From a virus: DNA of 20,352 nucleotides. Positions 4,483 through 19,613 of this stretch are shown here, piece after piece. The position numbers were made by a program, and so were the translations under genes. The notes under the pieces are model-generated. The model was not told the DNA's origin, ran no database searches, and worked only from the letters and a program-made list of their open reading frames with translations. The stretch lies in the IMG/VR virus record IMGVR_UViG_3300029268_000168, positions 1-20,352 of that record; one strand, written 5' to 3'. Each line of letters starts with the position of its first letter. Position 1 is the stretch's first letter.

Positions 4483-5003
4483 TCACTTGTGCTGCGCCTT
4501 CTTCATCTGCCGTTCGTCCTCCCTGGCAAACTCGTCAATGAACATCCCAAGTTCCCGCAGGGTGGCATCCTCAATCTCCTCGACCTGCGCTGGAGTCCAT
4601 CCGAAGGTTTTGGCAAAGACATAGTAATCGTACGTCTCAGCCACAGCCCTTGAGATGACACCCCGCTGGACCGAGGTTCTTATTTTTTTTCGATGTTCTC
4701 AGGTTTTATTTCACCATTTACATCCTGTGCGGCGGTAAACAACTCATTGAATGACGTGTCGGGAAGCTCCTGAATAATTGCAATCTGCTTGAACTTGTCA
4801 GGAGTCTTGACTGCGATTGAGATATACTTCTCGCGGTAGTCCTCCCATTTCTCGTAGTTGACCTTGAATTCCGGGTTCTGTGTATTGATGTCGGTCGGAG
4901 CTATCAGCTTGTTCAGCTCGCGCCTTTCCTTGCGCAATATGCGCCTGAGCGTGACAGCCTGCTTCGTGCCGTCAGCCATCTCGATTTCCACGGTTTTCTC
5001 CAT
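4483..5003 (-). CDS. Tail assembly chaperone, frameshifted fusion (GT-type) product
   Basis: A -1 shift at the A-run (4690-4683) bypasses the TAA and enters a frame of 66 codons ending with TGA 4485-4483, giving a fusion of about 173 aa. The extension (ATA AGA ACC... onward) contains VFAKTFGWTPAQVEEIEDA, a Trp/Pro segment typical of the T part of such chaperones, and ends in a charged helix (FAREDERQMKKAQHK). The frame fills the gap between the short product and the tape measure gene and overlaps the latter's ribosome binding region. In lambda the corresponding fusion bridges tape measure and tube subunits. The shift itself is inferred from sequence and analogy, with high confidence. Confidence 0.85.
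4661..4691 (-). promoter_or_regulatory. Programmed -1 frameshift site (slippery A-run plus downstream hairpin)
   Basis: In the chaperone frame the mRNA reads G-AA-AAA-AAA-TAA, providing the heptamer A-AAA-AAA (positions 4689-4683) that suits tandem -1 slippage. Six bases downstream a 5-bp stem, CCTCG (4676-4672) with CGGGG (4665-4661), encloses a 6-nt loop, at the spacing expected of a stimulatory structure. One pair is G-U. Confidence 0.82.
4680..5003 (-). CDS. Tail assembly chaperone, short (G-type) product
   Basis: This 107-aa charged protein lies between the tail tube and tape measure genes, the invariant position of tail assembly chaperones, which coat the tape measure before the tube polymerises. 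An N-terminal beta part (MEKTVEIEMADGTKQAVTLR) is followed by helices with KERRELNKLI and KFKQIAIIQELPDTS. ATG 5003 follows GAGGT by 7 nt. Translation ends with GAA AAA AAA TAA, placing an eight-A slippery run directly before the stop. That arrangement allows a -1 shift into a second open frame. The sequence itself is too divergent to identify without context; position and the frameshift signal together make the call firm. Confidence 0.88.
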   Translation of the reverse strand: MEKTVEIEMADGTKQAVTLRRILRKERRELNKLIAPTDINTQNPEFKVNYEKWEDYREKYISIAVKTPDKFKQIAIIQELPDTSFNELFTAAQDVNGEIKPENIEKK

Positions 5004-5018
5004 TGTATCTACCTCATG

Positions 5019-5060
5019 CCCTACTTGGGACTTTTTAGGTCGGGGCTACTTGCCCCGACC
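5019..5060 (-). promoter_or_regulatory. Tandem stem-loops with AAGTA loops in the tail-chaperone leader
   Basis: On the minus strand a perfect 9-bp, GC-rich stem (5060-5052 with 5046-5038) closes the loop AAGTA. Eight bases later CCC-AAGTA-GGG (5029-5019) forms a minimal second hairpin just ahead of the GAGGT ribosome binding site (5015-5011). No U-tract follows the strong stem, so termination is unlikely. mRNA processing, stability or translational control is more plausible. Confidence 0.6.
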
Positions 5061-6350: not shown

Positions 6351-6923
6351 TTATTTTCCAAGCAACCAACAGAAGACCAATGTGTTTATTTTGGTCATCG
6401 TGTCGGGCTTGTTCTGTGAGTGCCATACACTTCGATGAAGCTTCTTTGGAATGAACACCACATGCTCCGTGTCAATGTGGTGTGCTTCACTGCCTTCAAA
6501 TTCCTCATTGAGAACATCGTACCCTAATACTCTTCTTGCCGAATTATGTCGTACCCATGTGAGATGACTTCCTCCTTTCCAGTGTGGATGATTGGCTCCT
6601 TTTTTACCAAACATCGGATTGTTGCTACCCTTAGTTTTTACAGATGTTTTTAATTTACTCTCTTCGGAATGTATTCTACCTAGATTTGCCAAACGTAATT
6701 TTAGTTTTTTCTCCGCACTCATAGGTTTGCCATAACATGGATGAAGAGAACCACTCATCCTCAAACTAACTTTTTTGTTTTGTTCTTCTGAGTGTTTTCT
6801 TCCGAGTTGCCCTTGTCTCGATATTTCTCTTTTTTCTGTTGTTTGATTATTATGGCTAACACATAGATTGCCCTTTGTCTTTCTTGAAAGTTTCTTGTTA
6901 CAAATGATACAGAACTTTAGCAT
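6351..6923 (-). CDS. Free-standing HNH homing endonuclease with NUMOD3 motifs
   Basis: This 190-aa protein has three parts: an N-terminal zinc finger (Cys5, Cys8, Cys21, His24), NUMOD3-type DNA-binding motifs (GRKHSEEQNKK at 41-51, GRIHSEESKLK at 82-92, followed by NNPMFGKKGANHPHWKGG), and a C-terminal HNH nuclease with HH at 148-149, Asp151, and His164/His168. ATG 6923 follows GGTGA. The gene is visibly richer in A/T than its neighbours, with many T-runs on the plus strand. It separates two tail genes that are normally adjacent. These signs point to a mobile gene acquired separately, probably cutting virus copies that lack it. The flanking genes are intact, so it is an insertion between genes and not an intron. 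Confidence 0.92.
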   Translation of the reverse strand: MLKFCIICNKKLSRKTKGNLCVSHNNQTTEKREISRQGQLGRKHSEEQNKKVSLRMSGSLHPCYGKPMSAEKKLKLRLANLGRIHSEESKLKTSVKTKGSNNPMFGKKGANHPHWKGGSHLTWVRHNSARRVLGYDVLNEEFEGSEAHHIDTEHVVFIPKKLHRSVWHSQNKPDTMTKINTLVFCWLLGK

Positions 6924-6925
6924 AT

Positions 6926-7387
6926 TCACCAAGTCTCCGTAGAACGTGACAACCAGCGACCTTGGACATTTATAGTGCGCTGATACAACCCAAGTCCTGC
7001 GTTTATCGCCGTGCCTGAACCTCCATTGACTTCCAATAAAAGAAATTCTCCATCCGCATTGCGGGGGGAAGCCGGAACATAACCTCTATTCTTCCATATA
7101 CACATCATCACTTCATCTGCAACCTGTCGAATTTGCACAGGTTCCTTATCAAAGATATTTATACGGAACGTGTAAACATAGAAAAGCCCCATACCTGTAC
7201 CGAAACGCTCGCCTATTCCAGTCCTTATCTCAGTGGGAGTGGTCTCATCAGTTGTAATTCTTGGTTGTTTAGAGTCTACTCTTTCACCAGAAGGATACAC
7301 TCTCTTCTGCACCGAAGGTACGTTTGCCCTAAGTAGTTCGATTAATGCGAATTGTGGGGTTGACAACCCATTGTTATCGTATGCCAT
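6926..7387 (-). CDS. Tail terminator / tail completion protein
   Basis: This 153-aa protein is placed between the neck protein and the tail tube, where tail terminator proteins lie, and its length is normal for that family. It has a helix near the start (FALIELLRANVP), a beta region with FYVYTFRINIFDKE, a helix RQVADEVMMCIW and a late strand of the type YQRTINVQGRW, the alpha/beta pattern expected of terminators. ATG 7387 is 5 nt downstream of GGTG, which lies in the small AAGTA hairpin. Its stop TGA (6928-6926) is also the ribosome binding region of the HNH gene. The family is divergent, so identity rests on fold pattern and position. Confidence 0.75.
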   Translation of the reverse strand: MAYDNNGLSTPQFALIELLRANVPSVQKRVYPSGERVDSKQPRITTDETTPTEIRTGIGERFGTGMGLFYVYTFRINIFDKEPVQIRQVADEVMMCIWKNRGYVPASPRNADGEFLLLEVNGGSGTAINAGLGLYQRTINVQGRWLSRSTETW

Positions 7388-7392
7388 TATTG

Positions 7393-7434
7393 CACCTACT
7401 TGGTGGCTTCAGCCTTGGTCTACTTGACCAAGGC
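7393..7434 (-). promoter_or_regulatory. Tandem stem-loops with AAGTA loops in the tail-terminator leader
   Basis: On the minus strand a 9-bp stem (7434-7426 with 7420-7412) closes the loop AAGTA (7425-7421). A weaker 4-bp stem, CACC-AAGTA-GGTG (7405-7393), follows after 6 nt, and its 3' arm is the GGTG ribosome binding site. This could hold the start region closed. The same arrangement occurs at 5019-5060. Confidence 0.6.
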
Positions 7435-7457
7435 ACAGATGTCGCAGTTGTATTTAA
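7434..7457 (-). promoter_or_regulatory. Promoter-like element, copy 4 (upstream of tail terminator gene)
   Basis: Minus-strand TTAAATA (7457-7451), 8 nt, then ACATCTGTG (7442-7434), in the intergenic region after the gp10-like gene. Predicted initiation near 7427 would fall inside the 5' arm of the stem-loop that follows, so transcripts started here would lack an intact hairpin while read-through mRNA would carry it. Confidence 0.6.
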
Positions 7458-7459
7458 GC

Positions 7460-7996
7460 TTAACTCTTTATCGATGCCAAAAACGTCGTGGAAAAAATAT
7501 CAAGATACCCGTAGTTCACTAGATTGCTGTTGATTTTCTCAGTCGCAGCCTCGGTGAAAGGATGCGGTTTCGTCGAGTAGATAATCACATCGGACTCGAA
7601 ATCCCTGTCGAGCTTCTCCATAGCCCATTCGCGCGGTGCCATGCCGAATCCGCCGCCTTCCTCGACTTTCCCGGCATAAGACGCAGTGAATGCCATTTGA
7701 TGAGAAAAAGGACCGTCTGCCCCGAGGGATTTGAAAGAATCCAGTAGCCAGCGGGAATAGACAGGCACCTTGCCGCTTCCGTAATAAGCCGCGGCGTTTG
7801 GGTACTTTCCTGTCGGGAAGCGGCTATCTTCGGCAGTATCGGCGAAAATCATGTCGCGGTTGGAGGTAACATCCAGGCTGATTGCCTCAGCCACGCGCGC
7901 GAGACCGTCGGAACAGGCTTTCTCTAAGGCTGCCGGGTCAGAAAGTATTGGTGCGTCGATGCGTATTTCAACGCCCTTTCCCCTTATGACCTTCAT
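7460..7996 (-). CDS. HK97 gp10-like neck / head-tail joining protein
   Basis: This 178-aa protein matches the gp10-like head-tail joining family in length, position and C-terminal signature (YSTKPHPFTEAATEKI, similar to the family's RPHPF segment). The central region has RWLLDSFKS followed by a strand with TASYAGKVEEGG, also typical. It follows the adaptor and precedes the tail terminator, as in siphovirus operons. ATG 7996 follows GAGGT, which overlaps the adaptor's stop. The stop TAA (7462-7460) is next to the fourth promoter-like element. Confidence 0.82.
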   Translation of the reverse strand: MKVIRGKGVEIRIDAPILSDPAALEKACSDGLARVAEAISLDVTSNRDMIFADTAEDSRFPTGKYPNAAAYYGSGKVPVYSRWLLDSFKSLGADGPFSHQMAFTASYAGKVEEGGGFGMAPREWAMEKLDRDFESDVIIYSTKPHPFTEAATEKINSNLVNYGYLDIFSTTFLASIKS

Positions 7997-7998
7997 GT

Positions 7999-9309
7999 CT
8001 ACAACCTCATGAGAACCATTTTCCTGCCGATGGTGTCATAAAACGCTTCGATGTCGCGCTGCATATTCGCCAGGTTCGACGAAGTGAACTCCAGTGGTGA
8101 TGGACTTCCCATTAGGGTACTCTGGAATACAGTACGCGCGGCTATCCTGGTGGCAAGTTCCTGCACCGTGGCGGGTGGCTCTGCGTATCCATAAGCATAC
8201 ACTGCGGTGGCGATTAAGGGGTTGCGCTTGAGCTGTGCCACGGTATCCTTCAGGATGATGGTTCCGCTGTCAGCGCGGAGAAGATAGTCAGCAGCGGCTA
8301 TTACGACGCCCTGTGTGCAATACTGATAATCAGCAGTGATTGCACCGGTTGGAGCCGCCAGGAATGTAATGACGCCCGTGGTGTAGTTTATGGTGTAGTT
8401 TGTGACCTGGGCGCCTGCAACGTAGATTATCTCGCTTCCATAGACAACTGGATTGTAGTCAAGCGTGAAATCCAGGACAACACCTGCTCCGGTCCCGACC
8501 GCTTCGGAAGACACCGAGGTGGGCTGGGCGTTGATTATGAGCTGGGAAACCGAGGTGATGGGATAATTCGCAAGCTGTATCGTCCGGCTGATAAGTGGAG
8601 TGGTAGTGTTGGGCTTATAGGGCTGGACTGCCTCGTCGAAGGTTCCCAATCCGTATGCGCGGATGTCCGTGTTTATCGGGTCATAGCTGTCAATGAATTC
8701 GGTGACTGTCTGCGGCTGATAGAATGACCTGCCGGTCTTGCGGTTTATCTCGTCCTCCGCGCGCCTGATTGCGGCGACCACACGGGAGTTTACAACAGTC
8801 GAGTCTGCCCAGTAATCGGCAGTGACCGCGCCGGTGGTGTTTGCTGCGAATGTGATGATGCCTGTGTCGTAGTCGATGGTGTAGTCGACGTTCCTTTTCT
8901 TGGCAGTTCCTGCGACATAAACCACCTCAGTGTCGGCAATCATTTTCGGGTCGGCGACTGCGTTGCAGATTTTCTCCGCGCTGAGGGTGTCGACCGCCTC
9001 TCCGACAATGGTGCGATAGCGGTTGAGATAGGAAGCTACCTGCCTAGGCGTGGTGTAGTTGGTGTCTGAAGCGGTGCCGGTGTAAGGAATAGGAGATGAG
9101 TAATCGGAATAGACCGCATTCGTCGAGTCGTACCAGCGGACCTTAGCCCACGAGGTAGCAGTTCCGGCGGTGTCGATGTATTTGGTGGTGCGGATATTTG
9201 ATATTGTCGCAATCAACGAGTAGGTTCCGTATTTCGAGGATGCACGATAGACGAGCGTCTGGTCATACGTTGCGTCCGGGTCTGGAAGCGTCCAATTAAT
9301 TTCAGCCAT
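7999..9309 (-). CDS. Head-tail adaptor (connector) with FN3-like N-terminus and duplicated beta module
   Basis: This 436-aa protein probably binds below the portal. ATG 9309 is chosen because the alternative GTG 9318 is part of its AGGTGAT ribosome binding site. Residues 1-75 look like a fibronectin type III domain (strands around YRASSKYGTYSLIATI and WAKVRWYD). The adaptor core follows: helices with PRQVASYLNRYRT and VVAAIRRAEDEINRKTGR, then a C-terminal helix bundle. Two homologous beta modules interrupt it at about residues 126-167 and 292-330, both with an I/V-YVAG start, Y-T-I-(D/N)-Y, TG(I/V)ITF and TGA(V/I)TADY. The helical part resembles gp6/gp15-type adaptors. It is much longer than simple adaptors because of these insertions. 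Confidence 0.78.
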   Translation of the reverse strand: MAEINWTLPDPDATYDQTLVYRASSKYGTYSLIATISNIRTTKYIDTAGTATSWAKVRWYDSTNAVYSDYSSPIPYTGTASDTNYTTPRQVASYLNRYRTIVGEAVDTLSAEKICNAVADPKMIADTEVVYVAGTAKKRNVDYTIDYDTGIITFAANTTGAVTADYWADSTVVNSRVVAAIRRAEDEINRKTGRSFYQPQTVTEFIDSYDPINTDIRAYGLGTFDEAVQPYKPNTTTPLISRTIQLANYPITSVSQLIINAQPTSVSSEAVGTGAGVVLDFTLDYNPVVYGSEIIYVAGAQVTNYTINYTTGVITFLAAPTGAITADYQYCTQGVVIAAADYLLRADSGTIILKDTVAQLKRNPLIATAVYAYGYAEPPATVQELATRIAARTVFQSTLMGSPSPLEFTSSNLANMQRDIEAFYDTIGRKMVLMRL

Positions 9310-9318
9310 GAAAATCAC

Positions 9319-9735
9319 CTAGTTCATTTTCGCATCGGGCGAAGTTGAAGACACAGATGTCTTCGGTGCATTTAAGCCTATCGCCGCGCCTGGAGCGGAA
9401 GAGGATAATCTTGCGTCCGGAGCCGGAGGCGCGTTCACCGTGATAATCGGGGAAAACGTGTAGACAAACGCCGATGCACTTGGTTTGTCATTTACCGCGA
9501 CCGAGATGGACGGAATCGCACCGTGCACGACGGAGAGTGGAGCCGAACTGCTCACAAACACGCCTGGGCTGGAAACTCCTATCGCAGCTATGGGTGCGCC
9601 AGTGGTTATTCCAACCGAAGGCGCGTTCTGATTGACATACAGCCCGGGGAATGCCCGGTCATAATACACCAGATAGACACACTGCGTGCCGAGCTGTGAG
9701 CAGGTCACGCCGAGCTGGTTGTATCCGAGCTGCAT
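9319..9735 (-). CDS. Ala/Ser/Pro-rich repetitive protein (138 aa), function unknown
   Basis: This 138-aa protein starts at ATG 9735, 6 nt after GGAGTG; a GTG at 9744 would overlap the upstream stop. After an N-terminal 30 residues with two Cys (VTCSQLGTQCVYL), the body is a string of short units ending in S/N-A/S-P, such as NAPSVGI, GAPIAAIGV, SAPLSVV and SAPGAAIGL. This pattern suggests an extended beta-solenoid or linker rather than an enzyme. It sits just before the connector gene, and its last codons contain the third copy of the promoter-like element. No signal peptide. Possibly a minor virion protein. Confidence 0.65.
   Translation of the reverse strand: MQLGYNQLGVTCSQLGTQCVYLVYYDRAFPGLYVNQNAPSVGITTGAPIAAIGVSSPGVFVSSSAPLSVVHGAIPSISVAVNDKPSASAFVYTFSPIITVNAPPAPDARLSSSAPGAAIGLNAPKTSVSSTSPDAKMN
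9352..9375 (-). promoter_or_regulatory. Promoter-like element, copy 3 (upstream of adaptor gene)
   Basis: Minus-strand TTAAATG (9375-9369), 8 nt, then ACATCTGTG (9360-9352). This is the only copy with G in the last TATA position. It lies in the 3' codons of the 138-aa gene. Predicted initiation near 9345 would give a leader of about 36 nt before ATG 9309, with AGGTGAT as ribosome binding site. Confidence 0.55.
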
Positions 9736-9740
9736 CTGTT

Positions 9741-9941
9741 TCACTCCGGCGGGTCTGGCGCGGGTTCAGGCGCAGGGAAGAGATTTCCAACGTTGAGCGC
9801 AAGTGCGCATGTTGGGCAAATATCTACTCTCTTGTCCTTCCTTGGCTGGTCTTCCTCAAACTTCTGCACGAGGACTTTGTAGCGCGTTCCCGTTATCAGC
9901 TCATTGCAAACGTCGCAGGTATATGTCTTTGTTTCCGCCAT
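9741..9941 (-). CDS. Zinc-ribbon small protein (66 aa)
   Basis: This 66-aa protein has two CX2C pairs, Cys9/Cys12 (YTCDVC) and Cys42/Cys45 (DICPTC), a classic zinc-ribbon layout. Between them is a beta-hairpin-like, Lys-rich stretch, and the end is Pro-rich (APEPAPDPPE). Such ribbons bind DNA, RNA or protein; the partner here is unknown. I chose ATG 9941 because GGTGAT lies just upstream; the longer TTG start at 9953 would swallow that site. The stop TGA is nested in the ribosome binding region of the next gene, indicating coupled translation. It could be a small structural or regulatory protein of the virion operon. Confidence 0.75.
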   Translation of the reverse strand: MAETKTYTCDVCNELITGTRYKVLVQKFEEDQPRKDKRVDICPTCALALNVGNLFPAPEPAPDPPE

Positions 9942-9955
9942 TTTATCACCCAAAT

Positions 9956-10057
9956 TTATGACGGCGGCATATCACCGAAGATGATGTCATCCAACCACCC
10001 GAGCGTGGTTCATCACATAGCCGAGCATACTGCATCCTCTTGGTGTGCCGCCGTCAT
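9956..10057 (-). pseudogene. 34-codon frame interrupted by TGA TGA, bounded by a 13-bp inverted repeat
   Basis: A frame begins at ATG 10057, overlapping the upstream stop as ATGA. It reads 14 codons, meets two consecutive TGA codons, continues for 17 codons (including WLDDIIFGDMPPS) and ends at TAA 9958-9956. The second half looks like the C-terminus of a small phage protein. The halves are in the same frame. It may be a decayed small gene, a stop-codon readthrough gene, or a coincidence in a spacer. Confidence 0.3.
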
Positions 10058-10058
10058 A
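9957..10058. repeat. 13-bp perfect inverted repeat around the interrupted frame
   Basis: The arms TATGACGGCGGCA (9957-9969) and TGCCGCCGTCATA (10046-10058) are exact reverse complements separated by 76 nt. One arm holds the small frame's start codon and the 475-aa gene's stop; the other holds the frame's stop. No U-tract follows, so it is not a simple terminator. Confidence 0.6.
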
Positions 10059-11481
10059 TCAAACTTACCCTCAAATACTGCCCTATCGCATCTCCGATGT
10101 CACCGTTATCGGTAGTCTGCCTTCTCATCCCGCACGTTTTGATGTGCAGTCTTTGGTTTGCAAAATTGGTGACTATGTTGTGTTTTGTGTCCCTTAGGCG
10201 GAAGAAAAAGTTTCCGCTTCTTGGCTTGTAGGTTTTAGTGAGGAAAGGAAAGGTTGTCATGTCCATCTCGTTCAAATCGTATGTTGCCTGCGGAACCATC
10301 GTGCTGTCCATAGTGGGGCTGAGGCTCAATCCAGACTGACCTCTGCTCTTGCCGTGGGAATAAGCCTCTATCCTGAACGTATAATCAAAACCGCCTACCG
10401 ACAAAATCATATTTCCCTTTTTAAGAAATCCAGCCACCCTTGCCACGTCTGGGAAAGACCAAGCGTATTCCTCATTCGTTGCGACTCTTACGGTGTTGTC
10501 GTATAAGCTATTCGCTATGCTGACCACTTCCTGAAGACCTTTGGAAATGGTGTTAATCCTATAAGGAATGAATTTTTTGAGCTTGAGTGTGCTATCTCTG
10601 GCTATGTAGGTTGTTATTTTCGGGGTGAAGGGGATTACGCTTTCTATATAGACCAACCGATAGGCTCTTGGGTCGGTGTTGGTTATCCTTATCGTGTCGG
10701 TGAGGTCTTTGACGCATCCCTGCTTTAAGTCATAATCAGTCCGATTATCCCAATCACTTCCCCAGTTGAGTTCAATAGGACGTTCTGGGTCTGAGTAATC
10801 GTAGAGTTTGATGAAACCAAGGTCTGACCCTTCATCAAAAAGCATGGCGTGTCTGGTCTTGAAATACATATCCCCTCTATAACTCCCGACATTCGCAATA
10901 TTGCAATCATCTCGTGTGAAATCAACAACCATGTTCGTCGGGATGCTGTTTAACGACGAGGCTTCCCAAACAGGAACGCCTCCCGTGACCGTCAGGAATT
11001 GCCCTTCTCCGAGTGGCATAGGAAGAGGAGGAGCCTCTGGGAGCATTATCCTCATGTCTTTCAGCATATCACTTGTGAGGGCGGTTGCGTTTGCCGGAAC
11101 ATAAACCTGAACGATGTTGAGGTAATCTGCTACCTGCGTCGGCGGGGCGGGGGTGTATCTTTCAAAATACCCGTCTGTTGTGCTGTTCGGGTCGGCGGCG
11201 GTTCCGATTTGGCTTGTCCATGTGCCGTTGGTCAATCCGATTAAGTAAATCCTGTCTTGAGTGGTGGACTGCAAAAGGAGATTGACCCCTCCCTGATAAA
11301 GCGTCTGCCCTCCAAGGCGGTAGAAGCAATAACCTAACGTGACATACATACTCGTTCCAGATACGATTGCGACCCCTCCAGAAACTACGCCATGCCCCTG
11401 TATCCCGAGCTTCGCTGAGTTGTAGTCGTTCTCGTTGAAGACCTCCTTTCTTGTGCTGGAATTTGGCGCAGTGCCGACCAT
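10054..11481 (-). CDS. Putative virion structural / tail- or head-fibre protein (475 aa)
   Basis: I do not recognise a precise family. The N-terminal 150 residues (STRKEVFNENDYNSAKLGI, then Gly-rich beta strands such as VVSGGVAIVSGTSMYV) resemble the start of phage fibre or baseplate-fibre proteins. A short Pro-rich hinge (about residues 148-160) leads to a C-terminal domain of about 280 residues rich in aromatic and charged residues (YSDPERPIELNW, YKPRSGNFFFRLRD). There is no signal peptide. The start codon ATG 11481 lacks a strong ribosome binding site, so the true start may differ slightly. It lies 19 nt after the lipoprotein gene and its TGA overlaps the ATG of the small interrupted frame. 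A receptor-binding or capsid-fibre role is possible but unproven. Confidence 0.7.
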   Translation of the reverse strand: MVGTAPNSSTRKEVFNENDYNSAKLGIQGHGVVSGGVAIVSGTSMYVTLGYCFYRLGGQTLYQGGVNLLLQSTTQDRIYLIGLTNGTWTSQIGTAADPNSTTDGYFERYTPAPPTQVADYLNIVQVYVPANATALTSDMLKDMRIMLPEAPPLPMPLGEGQFLTVTGGVPVWEASSLNSIPTNMVVDFTRDDCNIANVGSYRGDMYFKTRHAMLFDEGSDLGFIKLYDYSDPERPIELNWGSDWDNRTDYDLKQGCVKDLTDTIRITNTDPRAYRLVYIESVIPFTPKITTYIARDSTLKLKKFIPYRINTISKGLQEVVSIANSLYDNTVRVATNEEYAWSFPDVARVAGFLKKGNMILSVGGFDYTFRIEAYSHGKSRGQSGLSLSPTMDSTMVPQATYDLNEMDMTTFPFLTKTYKPRSGNFFFRLRDTKHNIVTNFANQRLHIKTCGMRRQTTDNGDIGDAIGQYLRVSLI

Positions 11482-11500
11482 AAGGAACCCACTCGGATGC

Positions 11501-13099
11501 TCAACACTTGTAAGCCGAAACCGTGCCGCCCTCTGAAACGTTCAAGCACATTCTCTGTGAGGCGTTGTCATTCGCTATTACGCTAATTACGCCAGTGGAG
11601 TTTATCGTCATCAGAGTTCTGTTCAATACGATGTTCCCAATCTGATAGGTCTTGAAGACCAATTTGGGAGACACTGAGGTTGTATTGCAATTTTCAGTGT
11701 CAGTATAAATCTCCATGGAATTGCTTGTGCTCGCAGTGGTGTTCCATGCCACGGCAGTCATTCTCATGGTTGGAGAATTTCGCGTTATGTTGGTGATTGA
11801 ATTGCCTGCCGCTGTGGAGCTTACTATGCTGAGACCAGGTGTATATGACTCATTCAGAAGAGATGCCGTCGATTGTGTGATGATGCCTGAGAAAGCACCT
11901 GTCGTAGCTCCAGTCAACGCGCCTCCAGCGGCAACACCGACAAACGTTCCTGCGCCCGAACTGGTTATTGCACCGGTTGCGGTGAATGCTTGCGGAGTAA
12001 ACATGATTGACGTAAGAGCAGTAAGCGTGGATGTTGTGCGCGGTCCGCTATATGGACGAGGAGTAATGCCAGGAACAAGCTGCGCCCCCCACATTGAAAC
12101 GTTGTTTGTTCCGATATTTATGAACACGGTTTTGGTGGTGTGAGTATTTGTGAGTTCCTGAGTTACATAATATCGCTGCCATTGCCTTCCGATTACTATA
12201 GATTTGGCATCTTTGGTTTCGTTTGACGAATTTATGTTGAGAGAGATTGTTCTTTGGGTCGAGTCGTTGCCCTTCAGCCATACCGAAAAGGTCCAATTTC
12301 CAACAGTTGCGTTTGTGATTGTCTGCCTCACTGTGGCATCCGACACGTTTCCATTCACCCATTCTGCGAGAAGCGCACCTGTTGGGGCGTATGCGGTATT
12401 TGCTCCAGGAGCCGACGTGTTTCCAGTTGCAACCCAGGTAGTTCCAAATACTTCTGTCTGGAGAAGATAGTTCTGATATTGCCCGATGGATATGAATGGG
12501 CTGGAGATATAGCCGTCAATCATCACGGTTCTGCCGTCATCTAAATCAGTGGACAATCCGGTGCTTACCCCATTGTGCACCTCCAACCCAATAAATGATG
12601 CGCCATTCGCCTCAATATCATAACCTACCATACTCAAGTTGGTTTTGACCGGATTGGCGAATCCGCTCGCATATTCCTGGACATCCGCGCCGGAAGTTCC
12701 GACGTAGTTGATTGTCATGTTGGCAAGCGACGTGTTTGCCGTCCAGCCGGTTACTGTGAAACACACATATAGGAGCGGCTTATCAACGACGGTTGTGTAC
12801 GTCGTTGAGTTTCCGCTGACAGAACTCATGCTGAACCAGTTGGTGTTGTCAAGACTGCCGTAGAATGTCGCCGTAGCCGTTGCCCCGCTCCAGTTCCCGG
12901 AATAGTTCACAACGTATGCGTGCTGAGTTTGGATGGTGTTCAGCGTGAACATCTCGCAGGACGTGCTGTTGTTGGAATAAACGCCGATGCGGTATTGCTT
13001 GTCGAAAGAGCCGTTCGCGGAAGTTACGCCACTCTGCCCTAGGCAGCCAGCAATCATGATTACTGCAAGAAGCAGTATGGCAGAAATGGCATAACGCAT
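11501..13099 (-). CDS. Exported lipoprotein with carbohydrate-binding-like and fibre-like regions, rich in N-glycosylation sequons
   Basis: This 532-aa protein starts at ATG 13099 (GAGGTG 6-7 nt upstream). Residues 1-19 form a type II signal: a short basic start, a hydrophobic core, and the lipobox MIAGC with Cys19 followed by LG, a style common in archaeal lipoproteins. Next come a beta-rich domain (about 35-140) and a jelly-roll, CBM-like domain (about 205-355, with WTFSVWLKG and PRPYSGPR) of the type seen in phage fibres. Then come Ala/Gly/Thr-rich fibre repeats (about 365-410) and a beta-rich end with ENCNTT. I count about 25 N-X-S/T sequons, far more than in the capsid protein. It is probably anchored to the outer face of the host membrane, or is a virion fibre made from an exported precursor. 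Why a lipid-anchored protein sits in a structural operon is unresolved. Confidence 0.8.
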   Translation of the reverse strand: MRYAISAILLLAVIMIAGCLGQSGVTSANGSFDKQYRIGVYSNNSTSCEMFTLNTIQTQHAYVVNYSGNWSGATATATFYGSLDNTNWFSMSSVSGNSTTYTTVVDKPLLYVCFTVTGWTANTSLANMTINYVGTSGADVQEYASGFANPVKTNLSMVGYDIEANGASFIGLEVHNGVSTGLSTDLDDGRTVMIDGYISSPFISIGQYQNYLLQTEVFGTTWVATGNTSAPGANTAYAPTGALLAEWVNGNVSDATVRQTITNATVGNWTFSVWLKGNDSTQRTISLNINSSNETKDAKSIVIGRQWQRYYVTQELTNTHTTKTVFINIGTNNVSMWGAQLVPGITPRPYSGPRTTSTLTALTSIMFTPQAFTATGAITSSGAGTFVGVAAGGALTGATTGAFSGIITQSTASLLNESYTPGLSIVSSTAAGNSITNITRNSPTMRMTAVAWNTTASTSNSMEIYTDTENCNTTSVSPKLVFKTYQIGNIVLNRTLMTINSTGVISVIANDNASQRMCLNVSEGGTVSAYKC

Positions 13100-13114
13100 A
13101 ATGAACACCTCAAA

Positions 13115-13417
13115 CTACTTTTCGTCATTGTCCGGACGCAGCATCGTAAGGACGTATCCTCTTGCCGCGTCGTCACCTGTTCCGACGGTTATGGTGTAAT
13201 TGCCACCAGAAAGCGCTATGGACAGGGCTTCAATCGCACCGTTGGTCACATCGAATCCTGTTCCGCCAACAAGCGTCCCGTATGTCGCAGCGGCGAACAC
13301 GATTGTGTTCGTTGCGTCGGCAGTTGCTGGCGCCTCTATTACGAGGATGTAGTACTTGCAAAACCCAAGGGAATCGTAGACCTTCGTGAATGTGCAGTCG
13401 GTTGTTATTGCCGTCAT
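13115..13417 (-). CDS. Small beta-rich protein, paralog pair B member 2 (100 aa)
   Basis: This is a close paralog of the 95-aa neighbour: TFTKVYDS, KYYILVIEAPATAD, EALSIALSGG, YTITVGTGDDAARGYVLTM. It carries a short extra acidic C-terminus (RPDNDEK) and two cysteines (Cys8, Cys20) where its partner has one. ATG 13417 is preceded by GAGGT, which overlaps the previous stop codon. The gene precedes the lipoprotein gene by about 15 nt. Function unknown; interpreted with its three relatives as possible capsid decoration. Confidence 0.73.
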   Translation of the reverse strand: MTAITTDCTFTKVYDSLGFCKYYILVIEAPATADATNTIVFAAATYGTLVGGTGFDVTNGAIEALSIALSGGNYTITVGTGDDAARGYVLTMLRPDNDEK

Positions 13418-13427
13418 ATCAAAAACC

Positions 13428-13715
13428 TCACACTGCCATAGTCAGCACATAGCCGCGCGCCTTGTTGGTGCCGGTCCCAATCGTAATCGTGTAGGTATCG
13501 GTGGATAACGCAATCGAAAGAGCCTCGGATTTTCCCGAAGTTTCCTCTGCCGCGTGCCCGCCAACGACAGTCCCCCATACCGACTTCAGGAAAGTTATCG
13601 TGTCGCCCGAGTCCGCCGTAGCGGGAGCCTCAATCACAAGGGTGTAGTACTTGCCGAGTCCTACAGCAGGTACAACCTTGGTGAATGTGCATGATGTAGT
13701 AATTTCAGCCACCAT
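13428..13715 (-). CDS. Small beta-rich protein, paralog pair B member 1 (95 aa)
   Basis: This is the third of the four small genes. ATG 13715 overlaps nothing and has GGGGTG about 6 nt upstream; an in-frame GTG at 13724 would add three residues but removes this spacing. Strands include CTFTKV, KYYTLVIEAPATAD, EALSIALS, YTITIGTG and a final ARGYVLTM. These are shared in order with the following gene. There is weaker similarity to pair A (an initial short strand, a G-x-K strand, a central WGT and a hydrophobic end), so all four may share one fold. No export signal. Function unknown. Confidence 0.73.
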   Translation of the reverse strand: MVAEITTSCTFTKVVPAVGLGKYYTLVIEAPATADSGDTITFLKSVWGTVVGGHAAEETSGKSEALSIALSTDTYTITIGTGTNKARGYVLTMAV

Positions 13716-13716
13716 A

Positions 13717-13971
13717 TTAAACACCCCATATCCTGATGCAGTGGACAGCCGCGCCTGTCAGGTTTCCCATAGTCACAGTAAGACCGGAAAACGTTGCAGC
13801 CTCTACTCCTCCAGTTGCGTTGCAGACGTATAGCCCGTAGATGGTGGTGAAATACCCCGTAGCATCGAATGTAAAGCTGTCGTCGGTCGCACTGTCGGTC
13901 AGGATGATTATTTCCTTTATGCCCGAATTGGGCGTAAGCTGTCTCAAATCAGAGACTACAATAGCCGTCAT
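13717..13971 (-). CDS. Small beta-rich protein, paralog pair A member 2 (84 aa)
   Basis: This tandem paralog of the 83-aa neighbour keeps MTAI, DLRQ, KEIIIL, DATGYFTTI, LTVTMG and the ending CIRIWG in the same order and spacing. The most divergent part is the middle (CNATGGVEAATF against ADATGAVKIATF). ATG 13971 follows AAGGAGGT with 6 nt spacing, and the gap to the previous gene is 12 nt. The closeness of the pair indicates a fairly recent duplication followed by divergence. Function unknown; a decoration or fibre-type virion protein is plausible from position. Confidence 0.75.
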   Translation of the reverse strand: MTAIVVSDLRQLTPNSGIKEIIILTDSATDDSFTFDATGYFTTIYGLYVCNATGGVEAATFSGLTVTMGNLTGAAVHCIRIWGV

Positions 13972-13983
13972 GTGAAAACCTCC

Positions 13984-14235
13984 TTAAATTCCCCATATTC
14001 TGAGACAGTGCACTCCGGTCGAAATCGTTCCGAGCGTCACGGTAAGACTTGAGAACGTGGCTATCTTCACCGCGCCTGTTGCGTCGGCTAGATAGGTTCC
14101 CCAAATCGTAGTGAAATATCCGGTCGCATCGTAGGTATGCCCAGTTGCTGCTGCCGAACTGGTCATAATGACTATTTCCTTCACACCTGCGTTCGGTACC
14201 GCCTGTCTTAATTCGTCAACCGTTATTGCCGTCAT
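13984..14235 (-). CDS. Small beta-rich protein, paralog pair A member 1 (83 aa)
   Basis: Function unknown. This is the first of four small tandem genes after the capsid gene and terminator. The start is ATG 14235 behind GGAGGT with 7 nt spacing; an upstream TTG would overlap that site. The sequence alternates short beta-like strands and has no signal peptide, membrane segment or Cys pair. It aligns along its whole length with the next gene: shared segments include LRQ, a KEIVIMT-like strand, DATGYFTTI, SLTVTLG and a terminal RIWG. Position after the capsid protein suggests a capsid decoration or head-fibre subunit. That is an inference from location and predicted secondary structure. Confidence 0.75.
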   Translation of the reverse strand: MTAITVDELRQAVPNAGVKEIVIMTSSAAATGHTYDATGYFTTIWGTYLADATGAVKIATFSSLTVTLGTISTGVHCLRIWGI

Positions 14236-14270
14236 AATAATTACCTCCAATAGTTACCTTTTCCTTTTAT

Positions 14271-14308
14271 GAAAAAAGGAAAAAACACTGGCTTCTCTAA
14301 GCCAGTGT
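14271..14308 (-). terminator. Hairpin plus U-tract terminator after the capsid gene
   Basis: On the minus strand a perfect 10-bp stem (14308-14299 with 14294-14285) closes an AGAG loop and runs straight into TTTTTCCTTTTTTC. The stem includes the last capsid codons and its TAG stop. It resembles an intrinsic terminator; poly-U termination is also used in archaea. It probably separates abundant capsid mRNA from the downstream accessory genes, possibly with partial read-through. Confidence 0.75.
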
Positions 14309-15406
14309 GATTATTGCCGTGTTGAATTGCGGAACTGTGCAGATGAGCGCCTCGTACATCTTTATCATGAATTTGTACGAATCGTTCGTCTTGGCAAGCT
14401 CCTCGTATGTCATGTCCTGGAGGACACGCATCTGCCATGTCGAGCTGTCCATAATGGCAATCTTCTTCAGGTTCGCCGTTGTAGGCATGAACTTTGAAGG
14501 TATGATTGGCAGACCCTCGAACACTACAGTCTGGAAGCCCCATGCAATCTTGTCCATCGGAACTATTCTCTGGTAGTCTTGCAGGAGAGCCTTGATGTCG
14601 TCCATCGTCTTGAAGTCTGTGACCATCATGTCCGGGTTGCCCTGACCGAGAGTTGCAGATTCCGCAGCAGTGCGCGCGTACCTGATTCCCTTTCTTAGGG
14701 TTGTTATGTCGATTGTCTGGTTAGCGCGGTCGGTATTGGAGTTGATGCTCGCGGTGTTCAGGATACCTAGGTATTCTGACCCTGCGACGGTTGCCACTCC
14801 ACCATAGCCGGTGCGGGAAGCAGCCAAGCCGTTTATGAGACAGTCCTCTTCAATGAACCTCATTGTCTTGGACTTGTTCATGACTTCGAGATTGAGCGCA
14901 TCGACGTATTGCTGTGAAAGGTACTGCTTGCTCGATGCAAGGTAAGGACCAGTCACACGCCCAATTGCGTATGCGTACTTCATCGCAAACGAGTTTCGGA
15001 CATAGGTGTCGTCAGTCTCGTTGAGAGCCGCATCTTCAATGTTAAATCCACCAACACCACGGGCGGAAAGCTGATTGAACTCAGCGGTCCTTCCGTAGTT
15101 GGTCACGCGGGGAATCAGCTCCACGAGAGGAGTGAGCCTGCGGGTCATGTCTATGATGCTCGGGTCGACGTAAAGCGGTATGACTGCCTTGTCGGTCGTA
15201 CCCGATGCCGCATCGGAAATCGATGCTGCCTTGGAGAAATCAAGTCCGGTCTTTTCGTAGATGCCCTTGGCGAGTGCCGGGCGTCCGTCGAAGCCGTGCA
15301 TGTTGTCCACATACATTGACTTGTTCGGGAGCATCTCGGTCGCTTCAAACGATGAAGCCATCTTCGAGAGTACCTTGTATTTTTCACTCATTGATAGTTC
15401 TTCCAT
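14297..15406 (-). CDS. Major capsid protein (HK97 fold)
   Basis: This 369-aa protein is the main shell subunit. It follows portal and protease in the usual order and has typical HK97-family features: a helical, flexible N-terminal arm (about residues 1-75), the segment VDPSIIDMTRRLTPLVELIP leading into the shell domain, long E-loop and spine-helix regions around residues 120-200, and a beta-rich P-domain with MPTTANLKKIAIMD near the C-terminus. ATG 15406 is preceded by GGAGG with 7 nt spacing, the strongest ribosome binding site in the head module, which fits a highly produced protein. The last codons form the 5' arm of a terminator hairpin. N-glycosylation sequons are sparse, unlike in the exported proteins of this window. 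Confidence 0.93.
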   Translation of the reverse strand: MEELSMSEKYKVLSKMASSFEATEMLPNKSMYVDNMHGFDGRPALAKGIYEKTGLDFSKAASISDAASGTTDKAVIPLYVDPSIIDMTRRLTPLVELIPRVTNYGRTAEFNQLSARGVGGFNIEDAALNETDDTYVRNSFAMKYAYAIGRVTGPYLASSKQYLSQQYVDALNLEVMNKSKTMRFIEEDCLINGLAASRTGYGGVATVAGSEYLGILNTASINSNTDRANQTIDITTLRKGIRYARTAAESATLGQGNPDMMVTDFKTMDDIKALLQDYQRIVPMDKIAWGFQTVVFEGLPIIPSKFMPTTANLKKIAIMDSSTWQMRVLQDMTYEELAKTNDSYKFMIKMYEALICTVPQFNTAIITLA

Positions 15407-15420
15407 AACAAAACCTCCGT

Positions 15421-16455
15421 TTATCTAAGCGTTCCCCTTTGGAAGAGCGCGAAACTTCCCTCTTCTTTCTTCACTTCCTTGTGCATGTCCTCGGCTTCCG
15501 TGGAAAGGGCTTTGGATACAACTCCCTTCTCGGCTGCCTTGGCATCGAGCGCCTTGTGCAGCTCCTCGATGCGCGCGTTCGCGGCTGCGAGGCTGGTCTG
15601 CATTTCGGCTTTCTGAGCGTCAAATGACTTCTGCATCTCGACAAACTTCCCTTCATGCGATTTCTCAAAGTCGGAAAAGACCTTCTTGAAACCATCCGAG
15701 GCGAGTATATCTTCGACGCCTTTTACTTCCCCTGGACCGACTTCGGACTCAGGAACAAACTTGTTTTCAGTGCCGCACTTTGCGCATTTGAGCATCGCCG
15801 GTTTTCCATAAGCGCATTTCACCTTGTGCTCGACAAGCTCCTGCGCATAGGTTTCACTGGCTTCGTGCTTGGGCGTTTCGCCCTGCCCGACCTCGCTTTC
15901 CTTCTTTTCGTTTGCGAGTATCGCAGGCGCGTCGACCGCCTTTTCAACGTCTTCTTTCAATGAATCACCCTTAAAGGATTTGCTCATATAAGACAGAATC
16001 GAGGCGTCCCCGTTCGAGGGGATGCCTACCACCGAAACCTCGTAGCAGTCCACATCCTTGATGGTGCGGACTTTCTTGCCGAGCTTCTCGTCGAACTGGT
16101 CTTCCCAGTCGCGGATTTTTCCGCCGATGGAAAATGATTTTAGGACGCCTTCCTGTATTTGCGTTATGACATCTCTCATGCCTTCTGCTTTCGTGGGTAC
16201 GACCGAAATGCGGACGGAGTCGTTCACTACCTCCGTGGAGGCGACCGTTCCAACTCCGAGACCTTTCAGGTCGTGATTGAAGAAGACAGTGGAATTTTTC
16301 TTTAAGTCGGACGCAATCTTGTTCAGGACGGCTTTGTCCATGCGCTCGTTGTCCTTGTCGATTGACGTGGACGAGGCTATTCCGCCGAAAAGCTTGAGAC
16401 TTCCGTCTGCCGAGACAGTCTTCTCAAACGGTATGAAGATTTCAAAGTCATGCAT
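15421..16455 (-). CDS. HK97-type prohead maturation protease fused to a scaffold-like C-terminus
   Basis: This protease cleaves head proteins during capsid maturation. The first 160 residues match the U35/S78 herpesvirus-assemblin-like fold: His in VFFNHDLKG (residue 61 from ATG 16455), Ser in LKSFSIGG (residue 109), and the strand EVSVVGIPSN. A zinc-knuckle-like segment (CX8-9CX2C, about residues 214-227) follows. After it comes a charged coiled coil (about residues 265-330) like the internal scaffold region. The capsid protein shows no long delta domain, so scaffolding probably resides here. I chose ATG 16455. An in-frame GTG at 16464 would add three residues, but that GTG belongs to the conserved ACATCTGTG motif and has only a weak GGGG upstream. 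The gene ends 14 nt before the capsid start. Confidence 0.92.
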   Translation of the reverse strand: MHDFEIFIPFEKTVSADGSLKLFGGIASSTSIDKDNERMDKAVLNKIASDLKKNSTVFFNHDLKGLGVGTVASTEVVNDSVRISVVPTKAEGMRDVITQIQEGVLKSFSIGGKIRDWEDQFDEKLGKKVRTIKDVDCYEVSVVGIPSNGDASILSYMSKSFKGDSLKEDVEKAVDAPAILANEKKESEVGQGETPKHEASETYAQELVEHKVKCAYGKPAMLKCAKCGTENKFVPESEVGPGEVKGVEDILASDGFKKVFSDFEKSHEGKFVEMQKSFDAQKAEMQTSLAAANARIEELHKALDAKAAEKGVVSKALSTEAEDMHKEVKKEEGSFALFQRGTLR

Positions 16456-16461
16456 AGTTGC

Positions 16462-16485
16462 CACAGATGTCGCCCCTATATTTAA
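16462..16485 (-). promoter_or_regulatory. Promoter-like element, copy 2 (upstream of prohead protease)
   Basis: Minus-strand TTAAATA (16485-16479), 8 nt, then ACATCTGTG (16470-16462). The TATA-like box overlaps the portal stop codon. Its centre is 27 nt upstream of ATG 16455, so transcripts started here could be leaderless with the A of that ATG as first base. This is inferred from usual archaeal spacing. Confidence 0.62.
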
Positions 16486-18188
16486 GCCTTTGGTTTCAGC
16501 TTAATTCTTTCCTCTGTAAGTTGGTCGGTACCTTTGTAGAATGTCGCCGTGTCATCGATGCTCTTCATCGGTCGCGGATGCACCAAGGAAGGGACATGTG
16601 TTTTGTCCGTACCGTCGTAATCGTAATTGATATTCGCATTCACGCGCAGCCATGCGTCGATGACCGGCTTGACCTTGCTGCGGAAGTCCTGCATCATGGT
16701 CGGGCTTGTCACTTCCCGCTCGGGCTCGACCGCACCGAAAGGGTAATCCTTGCCTGGGTCTGCCTTTGCAAACTTGCGCGACTCGTTTGCCTGCGAGGAA
16801 TTGAGACGTTCTGAGTTTTCCTTCTTGTCCTGGTTCTTCATCGGGTGTGCAGCGTTCGGATTGCTGAGCGCGCCTCCCGCTCCGGGTTTCTGCGGCTTGC
16901 CGTCAGCCGTCATGCCCATCGCCATGTTCTGCTCCTGGATTTCCTGCCGGATGTCGTGGATTGTCTTGTCGCCCATTTCCTCGGTTTTCATGTCGATTTC
17001 ATCCTGGGTGGACTGGTAGGTGACTTTCCTGGTCTCAAGCGCAGGAAGCCCCATTTTGTTGCGCACCTCGTTCGGGGTGCACCATTCTATCGTCGAGGTC
17101 AGTTGCGCGACCTGCGCGTTCTTGAGAAGCTCACGGGAGTTTTCGTCGTTGAATTTGAACTTGACGTCGTCAAAACCGAAGTTCGCCGTGGTGAGGAGCT
17201 TCAGGTTCACGATGTCCTGTATCATGAGTCGCAGTTTTTTCTTCTTGCGGTCCCAGGATTCCATCTGGGTTTGAGAGTTTGAGCGGTTGGAGCCTTCGGT
17301 TATGCCGAGGAAGATTGGAGGGACGCCGGTCGCCGCGATGATTTCCTGGCGCAGGAAGTTCATAAGCTCGACGAACTGCATGTCCTGGTTGCTGGGAGCG
17401 ACAAGAACATGTGTGACTTCGCCCGCACCGGCATTCAGAAGAATGTCCGTCTGCGGAGTAGCCTGTCTGAGGGTGGTCGCCATGCGGTTGACCTGCTCCT
17501 GCGACAGGTTCTTCGTGGTGTAGATGGAGCGGGGAAGACCATTGCGCCGGAAATACTCCGCATTGAAGTTATATGCGGACATTTTCGTTTGGATGGTGTA
17601 GACAACAGACTGTATCGGAGTGTTCCCGTATACGCGCCCGCCGGTGTTGTTGATTGAAAAATGAATCATTTCGTCAGGATAGAAGTCGACGCGCCTGTGA
17701 AGGACACGCTGGATGTATTTGAGCGTGTCGCCGTGCTCGTCGTAATCAATGCGTACCGTAGCCGCGTCGACTGGACGGAAATATTGTACAATTCCGGAGC
17801 CGTTGCGGACTATCTCGGAATATGCGTCGCCGTAAATAATGAGCGAAGTGACCGTATCCTGAAGGAATTTCTGGAAGTCTGCCGCCTTGAAAAGTTTTTC
17901 GACCTTCTTGACATGAAGCTCGGTGTCGCCCTCGAGAACCCAGCCGTCTCCGACAATCGCATCGACCGTGATGTCGACGCACGCGCGGATGATTGGCTCC
18001 TCCTGATAGGCTTTCCAGATTAGTTTGTAGGAAACAGGCTGCGGCTGCCCCCACCAGGTGTTGCGGAAGGCTAGGTAATCGGGTGTAAGGGCGTAGGAGT
18101 CGTAAGGAGTAGAAGAAGTGTTCGTGGTCGCGGTCTTTGCAATCGAGCCGGACTTAACATAAGCGAGGTTGTCAATTCCAAAATCCAC
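16482..18188 (-). CDS. Portal protein
   Basis: This 568-aa protein forms the dodecameric ring at the capsid vertex through which DNA enters and to which connector and tail attach. It has the layout of the HK97-type phage portal family: a leading segment with YQEEPIIRACVDITVD, a wing region containing SLIIYGDAYSEIVRN and YFRPVD, a clip/stem region with FLRQEIIAATGVPPIFLG, and SNSQTQMESW before the crown helices. A hydrophilic Gln/Lys/Glu-rich tail of about 160 residues follows the conserved core. The start is GTG 18188, placed immediately after the terL stop (TGA 18191-18189) with GGTGAT upstream. The stop codon TAA (16484-16482) lies within the second copy of the promoter-like element. Confidence 0.95.
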   Translation of the reverse strand: MDFGIDNLAYVKSGSIAKTATTNTSSTPYDSYALTPDYLAFRNTWWGQPQPVSYKLIWKAYQEEPIIRACVDITVDAIVGDGWVLEGDTELHVKKVEKLFKAADFQKFLQDTVTSLIIYGDAYSEIVRNGSGIVQYFRPVDAATVRIDYDEHGDTLKYIQRVLHRRVDFYPDEMIHFSINNTGGRVYGNTPIQSVVYTIQTKMSAYNFNAEYFRRNGLPRSIYTTKNLSQEQVNRMATTLRQATPQTDILLNAGAGEVTHVLVAPSNQDMQFVELMNFLRQEIIAATGVPPIFLGITEGSNRSNSQTQMESWDRKKKKLRLMIQDIVNLKLLTTANFGFDDVKFKFNDENSRELLKNAQVAQLTSTIEWCTPNEVRNKMGLPALETRKVTYQSTQDEIDMKTEEMGDKTIHDIRQEIQEQNMAMGMTADGKPQKPGAGGALSNPNAAHPMKNQDKKENSERLNSSQANESRKFAKADPGKDYPFGAVEPEREVTSPTMMQDFRSKVKPVIDAWLRVNANINYDYDGTDKTHVPSLVHPRPMKSIDDTATFYKGTDQLTEERIKLKPKA

Positions 18189-19613
18189 TCATATCACCAC
18201 GACTGAGCTATCACTGTTTGTCATGTCCGAGTCTTGGACATTGAGCACAGATGTTTCGGCTCTATTTAATGCTTTGCCTTCAGCCGGAATCAGAGTGACC
18301 CCAACATCGGCGTAAATCACAGCGCATTTCCAGTAAGCCAAAGCCAGCGCAATCACGCAGTCATCATGCTTTCCGGAAGGCGCGTTCATCTTGATGCCGC
18401 CTGTCTCCTCCGAAATCTCATATTGGTAATATCGAAGCTCATCGGTGAGCGTCGCGTTGTCATGGGAGAATTTGATGCGCCGCTGCTCAAGCCCGGTCTT
18501 GAGCGTGTTGATGAGTTCTATCTTCGCTGGCATGGAAAACTTGAATCCTTCTGTCATCGGCGCCTTGGAAAGAATTTGCTCGGTCAAGCCTGCTCCGACT
18601 CCTGTTTCGTCGACCGTGATTCTGAGCGGCTGGAAGTTGGCGGCGACCGCAAGGACGCGGTCGACGATATAAGAATAAGGTTTGTTGTTGAATCGCTCAG
18701 TGAATACCACTTTGCAACTTTTTTGGTCAGTACCGTCAACGACGTATATTGTGGTGTAGTCGTGCATCTTGGCGATGTCGACCCCGATGAAGTAGTTTTT
18801 CTCCTTTTCACGCTCGAACACCTCCGGAAAGTTTCCGATTGCGTCATTGATTGAATCCCACTTGAACACGCAGACCTGGTCGTCCACGAATTCGCCGAGC
18901 CATTCCGTCCTGAACTGGAGGTCGGTGACCTGCAATTTCTGGCGGTCGATGAAGGCGTGGGAGATATGCGGGTTTTCGTAGGAAGAGAACTGAAAAGATG
19001 CGTGGTCCGGGTCGCCCTTCCTGCCGCGCATGAACATCTGGTAGAAGTGGTTCTGCCCGAGAGGGGTGGAGATTTCGATGATGTCGCCATCGAAGTCGGC
19101 GAGCATGGGCAAAATGACGGTGTTGATGACGTTTTCCTTCACGAAGGCTGCTTCATCTATGATGATGCGGTGAGCGTTGTGACCTCGGAGATACTTTCCC
19201 TCGTTGTTGCCGGTCGAGCGCGCATAGATGACGGAGCCGTTTTCAAGGACAAGCTCAGGAAACGGGAAGTCCTTGGTGCGCTCGATGAGATTCCGTATCA
19301 TCGGGGAGGTCAGCGCCGTGTTCCTGAGTTCGTCGAAAATGATTTCAGCCTGGTCCTGCGAGTGGGAGATTATGTATTGGATTGATTTCTTGTGAGTCAG
19401 GGCATAATGGAGCGCGAGGGCTGCCATCATCTTCGATTTTCCGAACCGCCTTCCCGCCACGATGCAGGTGTTCTTCTTCATGCCGCCGATTATCTTGCGC
19501 TGTGCCTCGTGCGGGATGAAGCCGGTCCAGTGGTCGAGGGCATGAAAAACGTCGATTTGACCGAGGCGCCAGCATTTGTCGTCGGAATCACAGGCGGTTG
19601 TTTGGAGTTCCAT
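18189..19613 (-). CDS. terL: Terminase large subunit (packaging ATPase-nuclease)
   Basis: This is the motor that translocates viral DNA into proheads and cuts the concatemer. The 474-aa length is typical. The N-terminal ATPase domain has a Walker A loop GRRFGKSK at residues 54-61, a Walker B strand IIIDE at 150-154, and STPLG at about 182-186 in the expected position of the coupling motif. The RNase H-like nuclease domain has the three expected acidic positions: Asp279 in FIGVDIAK, Asp335 in ITVDETG and Asp417/418 in KHDDC. All key residues are present and there is no intein. The start at ATG 19613 follows GGAG and overlaps the preceding gene. The 3' end carries one copy of the TTAAATA-N8-ACATCTGTG element, read as codons for A-L-N-R-A-E-T-S-V, ahead of the portal gene. 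Confidence 0.97.
   Translation of the reverse strand: MELQTTACDSDDKCWRLGQIDVFHALDHWTGFIPHEAQRKIIGGMKKNTCIVAGRRFGKSKMMAALALHYALTHKKSIQYIISHSQDQAEIIFDELRNTALTSPMIRNLIERTKDFPFPELVLENGSVIYARSTGNNEGKYLRGHNAHRIIIDEAAFVKENVINTVILPMLADFDGDIIEISTPLGQNHFYQMFMRGRKGDPDHASFQFSSYENPHISHAFIDRQKLQVTDLQFRTEWLGEFVDDQVCVFKWDSINDAIGNFPEVFEREKEKNYFIGVDIAKMHDYTTIYVVDGTDQKSCKVVFTERFNNKPYSYIVDRVLAVAANFQPLRITVDETGVGAGLTEQILSKAPMTEGFKFSMPAKIELINTLKTGLEQRRIKFSHDNATLTDELRYYQYEISEETGGIKMNAPSGKHDDCVIALALAYWKCAVIYADVGVTLIPAEGKALNRAETSVLNVQDSDMTNSDSSVVVI
18246..18269 (-). promoter_or_regulatory. Promoter-like element, copy 1 (upstream of portal)
   Basis: On the minus strand, TTAAATA (18269-18263) is followed after exactly 8 nt by ACATCTGTG (18254-18246). 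TTAAATA resembles an archaeal TATA box. Initiation about 27 nt downstream of the box centre would fall near 18239, leaving a leader of about 50 nt before the portal GTG. The element lies inside the last codons of terL. Three other copies share its spacing. Confidence 0.6.

Follow-up and report, generated by a model that had tools for sequence, protein, structure and literature searches.

Structural genes and repeated elements of the window

The window, a linear fragment of 20,352 nt that makes up the entire viral record, carries a structural module on its minus strand. Pfam profiles identified genes for the terminase large subunit (TerL; 18189-19613; PF03237 and PF17289), the portal protein (16482-18188; PF04860), the prohead protease (15421-16455; PF04586) and, downstream of the protease, an SU10-like major capsid protein (MCP; 14297-15406; PF17236), the last with its own Shine-Dalgarno sequence, GGAGGT. 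Tail tube (PF18906) and tape measure genes were also identified. The gene at 7999-9309 (minus strand) is called adaptor-like, or virion structural, after weak profile matches (phrog_11431, and DUF2460 below the cut-off). The gene at 6926-7387 (minus strand) had no match in the profile search and is said to be in the tail-terminator position from gene order alone.

Several other genes were observed. A NUMOD3 homing-endonuclease-like gene (6351-6932, minus strand) lies between the tail-terminator-position and tail tube genes and is missing at the equivalent place in the relative G002. A small zinc-finger-like protein with a CxxC...CxxC pattern (9741-9953, minus strand; weak ZZ match only) is encoded directly upstream of ORF 9319-9744. 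A tail-chaperone-like gene (4483-5003, minus strand; from 18654 on in contig L019 and from 10670 on in L009) ends at an A8 run (GAAAAAAAATAA) in both the window and G002, and is followed by a conserved second frame (KKIRTSVQRGVIS...) that runs to the tape measure gene; this arrangement is likely to reflect a programmed frameshift, as in tailed phages.

Among cellular genomes, relatives of the MCP (32-34%) were found only in metagenome-assembled genomes (MAGs) of the phylum Nanoarchaeota. The best TerL match among phages was a haloarchaeal virus, Halogranum tailed virus 1. These two findings are suggestive of a tailed virus with an archaeal host. TerL also resembled proteins of Thermus and T4-like phages at about 30%.

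The pattern TTAAATA-N8-ACATCTGTG occurs four times in the window, always on the minus strand, and a search allowing up to three mismatches gave no further matches; the mean in 100 dinucleotide shuffles was 0.12, with a maximum of 1. Neither part is found elsewhere, ACATCTGTG having exactly four occurrences and TTAAATA three on both strands, all within the element sites. The first copy (18246-18269; spacer gagccgaa) is exact and lies within the 3′ end of TerL, ahead of the portal gene, with a predicted transcription start at about 18241. The second (16462-16485; taggggcg), also exact, spans the portal stop codon ahead of the protease gene, and its predicted start is the protease ATG itself (16455), i.e. 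leaderless. The third (9352-9375; caccgaag) has one mismatch (TTAAATG) and lies within ORF 9319-9744, ahead of the adaptor-like gene, with a predicted start at about 9346. The fourth (7434-7457; caactgcg) is exact and intergenic, just after ORF 7460-7996 and ahead of the tail-terminator-position gene; its predicted start is G 7429.

The pattern search thus bears out the coordinates and strand given in the initial annotation. Its description of differing reading contexts holds for TerL, the portal stop codon, ORF 9319-9744 and the intergenic copy, but the two coding copies share one frame (TTA AAT ... ACA TCT GTG). Its statement that every copy precedes a structural gene is secure by Pfam for portal and protease, whereas the adaptor was named from weak profile matches and the tail terminator from gene position.

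Conservation at the same junctions in related viruses

Five genomes were compared, namely the window, L005, G002, L009/L008 and L024. As there are only five lineages, two of them closely related, tests that treat the genomes as independent are optimistic. The element was present at the portal and protease junctions in all five and at the tail-terminator junction in all three that reach that gene. In L005 (TerL 91% identical), the junctions ahead of portal and protease both carry TTAAATA-N8-ACATCCGTG. G002 (35 kb; MCP 80%) has TTAAATA or TTATATA followed by N9-AATCCGC at the portal (4521), protease (6338) and tail terminator (16792). L009 and L008, which are 99.7% identical over their overlap (MCP 64%), both have TTAAATA-N9-AATCCT at the protease; the longer contig, L009, has it also at the tail terminator (site 8845), and the right half of its copy at the portal is weak (TTCTCCGTA). 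L024 (MCP 61%) has TTAAATA or TTTTATA followed by N9-AATCC at portal and protease. The copy at the adaptor junction was seen in the window genome only and was not found in G002 or L009; the adaptor protein used as a query found no relative. In the more distant MCP relatives L023 and L079, no clear TATA-ATCC arrangement was found at matching junctions.

The generalised pattern TTWWATA-N10-MTCY, which does not cover the TTAAATG copy of the window, matched 15 times in the five genomes, each time on the coding strand, against about 0.6 matches expected from shuffles over both strands. The proposed scan of relatives against shuffled controls therefore revealed enrichment ahead of the same genes. 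Thirteen of these matches coincide with the junction sites already listed, and the other two are G002 356 and L009 6036 (TTATATAATGGTACGTTCTCTTTG), the latter probably a chance match. The former (TTTTATA-N9-AATCC; L019 356-379) is near the left end, about 190 nt before a Cas4-like gene, with no clear gene directly after it. A scan of 2.9 million viral contigs for the exact pattern returned 37 stretches, single and unrelated except for L005, the only contig with two copies. Therefore, the 9-mer form does not extend beyond this small group.

Codon usage points to a constraint on the DNA. The portal-junction copy lies in the C-terminus of TerL, where it is read TTA AAT, and this TTA-AAT is kept in all five genomes. 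TTA accounts for 5% of leucine codons in the window and 2-3% in three relatives (18/365, 2/98, 7/237, 64/166 and 2/129 over the five genomes). The probability of such retention calculated from codon usage is about 6e-10 with the lineages taken as independent, which overstates the surprise because the lineages share ancestry. In another reading frame, TTAAATA gives an immediate stop. Since another frame stops at once and TTA is rare, the codon choice indicates constraint at the DNA level. As originally argued, protein constraint does not explain the copies, in view of the retained rare TTA and the two copies outside coding sequence. Two copies do lie within coding sequence in a single frame, but chance or coding constraint as the origin of all four is extremely unlikely, being contradicted by the shuffles and the conservation between genomes as well.

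Probable promoter architecture and the varying right half

An A resembling part of a BRE is found upstream of the TATA-like sequence at position -6 in 12 of 14 sites and at -4 in 13 of 14. The protease start codon lies 30 nt from the first T of TATA in the window and L005, 29 nt in G002 and L024, and 28 nt in L009; the G002 start is a GTG in frame with an ATG at offset 38. In each of the five genomes this start codon is preceded by a pyrimidine and has a Shine-Dalgarno match of at most 3 nt, and most other genes have GGTGAT, AGGTGAT or GGAGGT. A start without a Shine-Dalgarno sequence 28-30 nt after TATA fits a leaderless mRNA starting about 26 nt past the TATA centre; in archaeal promoters the TATA box is centred some 26-27 nt ahead of the start site. 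The earlier suggestion of an archaeal TATA box is thus supported, and the reading of the four sites as archaeal-type BRE/TATA promoters, although made from sequence, is well supported.

In the leader of the tail-terminator-position gene, a hairpin GCCTTGGTC-AAGTA-GACCAAGGC (7412-7434, minus strand; z of the leader fold -3.4) contains an inner 4-bp hairpin that begins at the predicted start. The AAGTA loop is the same in G002 and L009 with different stems, and in all three genomes the base at the TATA-to-start distance is a G that follows T or C and begins the 4-bp AAGTA hairpin. Hairpins in the portal and adaptor leaders were no better than shuffles. Tandem C-G-closed hairpins with the pentaloop AAGTA (variants AGGTA and GAGTA) were observed in three lineages, with differing stem sequences, in two leaders, one belonging to the tail-terminator-position gene and the other to the gene that follows the tail tube gene (window 7393-7434 and 5019-5060, minus strand; L019 16821-16858 and 18598-18639; L009 8873-8885 and 10626-10642). 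The second hairpin in places carries a Shine-Dalgarno sequence in its 3′ arm. AAGTA was the sole recurrent loop among strong hairpins with 5-nt loops, and these hairpins had no match in Rfam. They look like a translational operator.

When sites were aligned on TATA, columns 0-6 and 17-19 (ATC) were almost fixed and column 20 was C or T. The left half, TTAAATA with BRE-like A's upstream, was near-invariant across genomes. The right halves were ACATCTGTG at four sites of the window, ACATCCGTG at two of L005, AATCCGC at three of G002, and AATCCT or AATCC elsewhere. Their identity was 83% within genomes and 56% at the same junction between genomes (p = 0.00075 with genome labels shuffled within junction classes). 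Identity of the N8 spacer at portal and protease was 33% both within and across genomes, and that of the downstream 12 nt was 30% within versus 35% across. Lineage-specific states appear at all copies simultaneously: C at offset 16 is shared by the window and L005, and T at offset 20 is peculiar to the window. The right half has thus been altered in step within each genome, the trace to be expected of a trans-acting factor with a lineage-specific preference. A dyad with ACA/TGT arms, initially read in ACATCTGTG, did not survive the comparison and was rejected: its arms are lost in L005 (ACATCCGTG) and missing in the other relatives.

Proposed function and comparison with known systems

We consider it probable from these sequence patterns that the sites are BRE/TATA promoters serving the structural module and supplemented by a specific element, which is probably the operator of a virus-encoded regulator. 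The promoter claim is based on several independent lines of evidence and the regulator claim on the concerted change and the position. The TATA box, together with the A-rich BRE-like stretch, would be recognised by TBP and TFB of the host, and RNA would start 28-30 nt downstream of the first T of TATA. The protease mRNA would then be leaderless, and those of the portal, adaptor-like and tail-terminator-position genes would have short leaders. The right half would then lie at about -14 to -6, with its ATCY core near -12 to -9, most likely bound by the regulator. Such a regulator would occlude initiation and repress the structural genes until they are needed. Occlusion is likelier than classical activation because the right half sits inside the initiation footprint, and an operator is the likelier role because known archaeal repressors work by occluding TBP/TFB or RNA polymerase; F55 of SSV1, for example, covers the start site and the BRE when bound (PMC5569661). 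An archaeal host, transcription itself, a regulator, its sign and its timing are inferred, as would be the division of one operon into separately timed units that was initially suggested. Among the accessory genes of G002 and L008, no HTH or RHH profile was found, only a Cas4-like exonuclease and unknowns; the window and its relatives are genome fragments.

A specificity factor or a host core element are possible roles for the right half. A rather unlikely reading is that of a sequence-specific -12 element which a virus-encoded factor, either a viral general factor or a late-promoter specificity protein, recognises as part of the initiation complex. If true, this factor would single out late genes in the way that sigma factors or T4 gp55 select promoters in bacteria, and the element and factor would co-evolve quickly between viral lineages. 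It is unlikely that the right half belongs to the host core promoter as an unusual promoter proximal element (PPE) contacted by TFB, TFE or RNA polymerase, with lineages differing as their hosts differ. ATCY is common to nearly all sites, and the right half lies where the archaeal PPE does, at about -10 (PMC5316973). However, every copy in the window differs from those of L005 at one and the same base, which is fast for a host core factor, and a TATA-like site at G002 544, with an ATG 28 nt on, ahead of the Cas4-like gene, is without ATCC. A host-wide element in the Nanoarchaeota MAG G006, which is not an established host, was rejected, since its pattern count was little above control (103 versus 75).

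We regard a bacterial phage promoter, whose transcribed leader would include the right half, as very unlikely. TTAAATA resembles the T4 late -10 box, TATAAATA, and the TerL similarity to Thermus and T4-like phages agrees with such an origin, but the BRE-like A's, the leaderless spacing in five genomes, the GGTGAT Shine-Dalgarno sites and the restriction of cellular MCP relatives to archaeal MAGs do not, and the fixed TATA-to-ATCY distance would be left without reason. Equally improbable is a role other than that of a promoter, either as a dispersed repeat or as a conserved site bound in recombination, in packaging or by a nuclease. Short identical blocks are indeed repeated and the homing-endonuclease-like gene is nearby, but spacers and flanks are unrelated, so the element is not a recent duplication, and the sites are stranded, lie ahead of genes, and are spaced from a start codon as TATA is from a transcription start.

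Little is known of how tailed archaeal viruses control their late genes, and almost nothing has been tested for relatives of uncultivated Nanoarchaeota viruses. The sequence alone provides a promoter grammar (BRE, TATA, N10, ATCY, start), which predicts the four start sites within about 2 nt and may be used for promoter finding in related metagenomic viruses. The concerted change implies that each lineage has a factor of its own specificity. Promoters within apparent operons have a precedent in HFTV1, where a gene-internal promoter splits one (PMC12542753); what is new here is the co-varying -12 element.

The PPE is at an equal distance from the start site, but it is A/T-rich and genome-wide (PMC5316973), whereas the right half is ATCY-based and specific; no A/T-rich tract was found near -10, where the conserved core is ATCY with adjoining G/C. 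Halovirus HF2 has intergenic repeats of 58 bp (class I) and 29 bp (class II) with cores CTTTAAGT or CCCTTTAC, which are promoters of early-middle and late classes, class II driving the late morphogenesis transcript (PMC8707807). Together with the SIRV promoters described below, these repeats are the nearest precedent: they too are promoter-bearing blocks that recur within the genome of an archaeal tailed virus, with positions conserved among relatives. However, they are intergenic, whereas two copies here are inside genes and only TATA and the 9-nt block are shared; the shared blocks (7 and 9 nt, with unrelated spacers) do not include the HF2 cores. SIRV2-type early regulatory sequences around the BRE/TATA core are shared by many genes and thought to be bound by viral regulators (PMC11065993). 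There too, one regulatory sequence serves many genes and varies between viruses, but it marks early anti-defence genes, not structural genes. Finally, promoters of the rudiviruses SIRV1 and SIRV2 have a GTC motif downstream of TATA that was proposed to be virus-specific (Kessler 2004, as reported in PMC5569661). They share with the present sites a host-type TATA and BRE, a short virus-specific cis element past TATA and many promoters per virus. No GTC downstream of TATA was common to our sites, whose right halves are ATCYGY or ATCC. SIRV1 and SIRV2 belong to another virus realm and host, and their motif has three bases versus 5-9 here; unlike theirs, the present element has copies that change together from one related virus to the next, and it marks structural genes.
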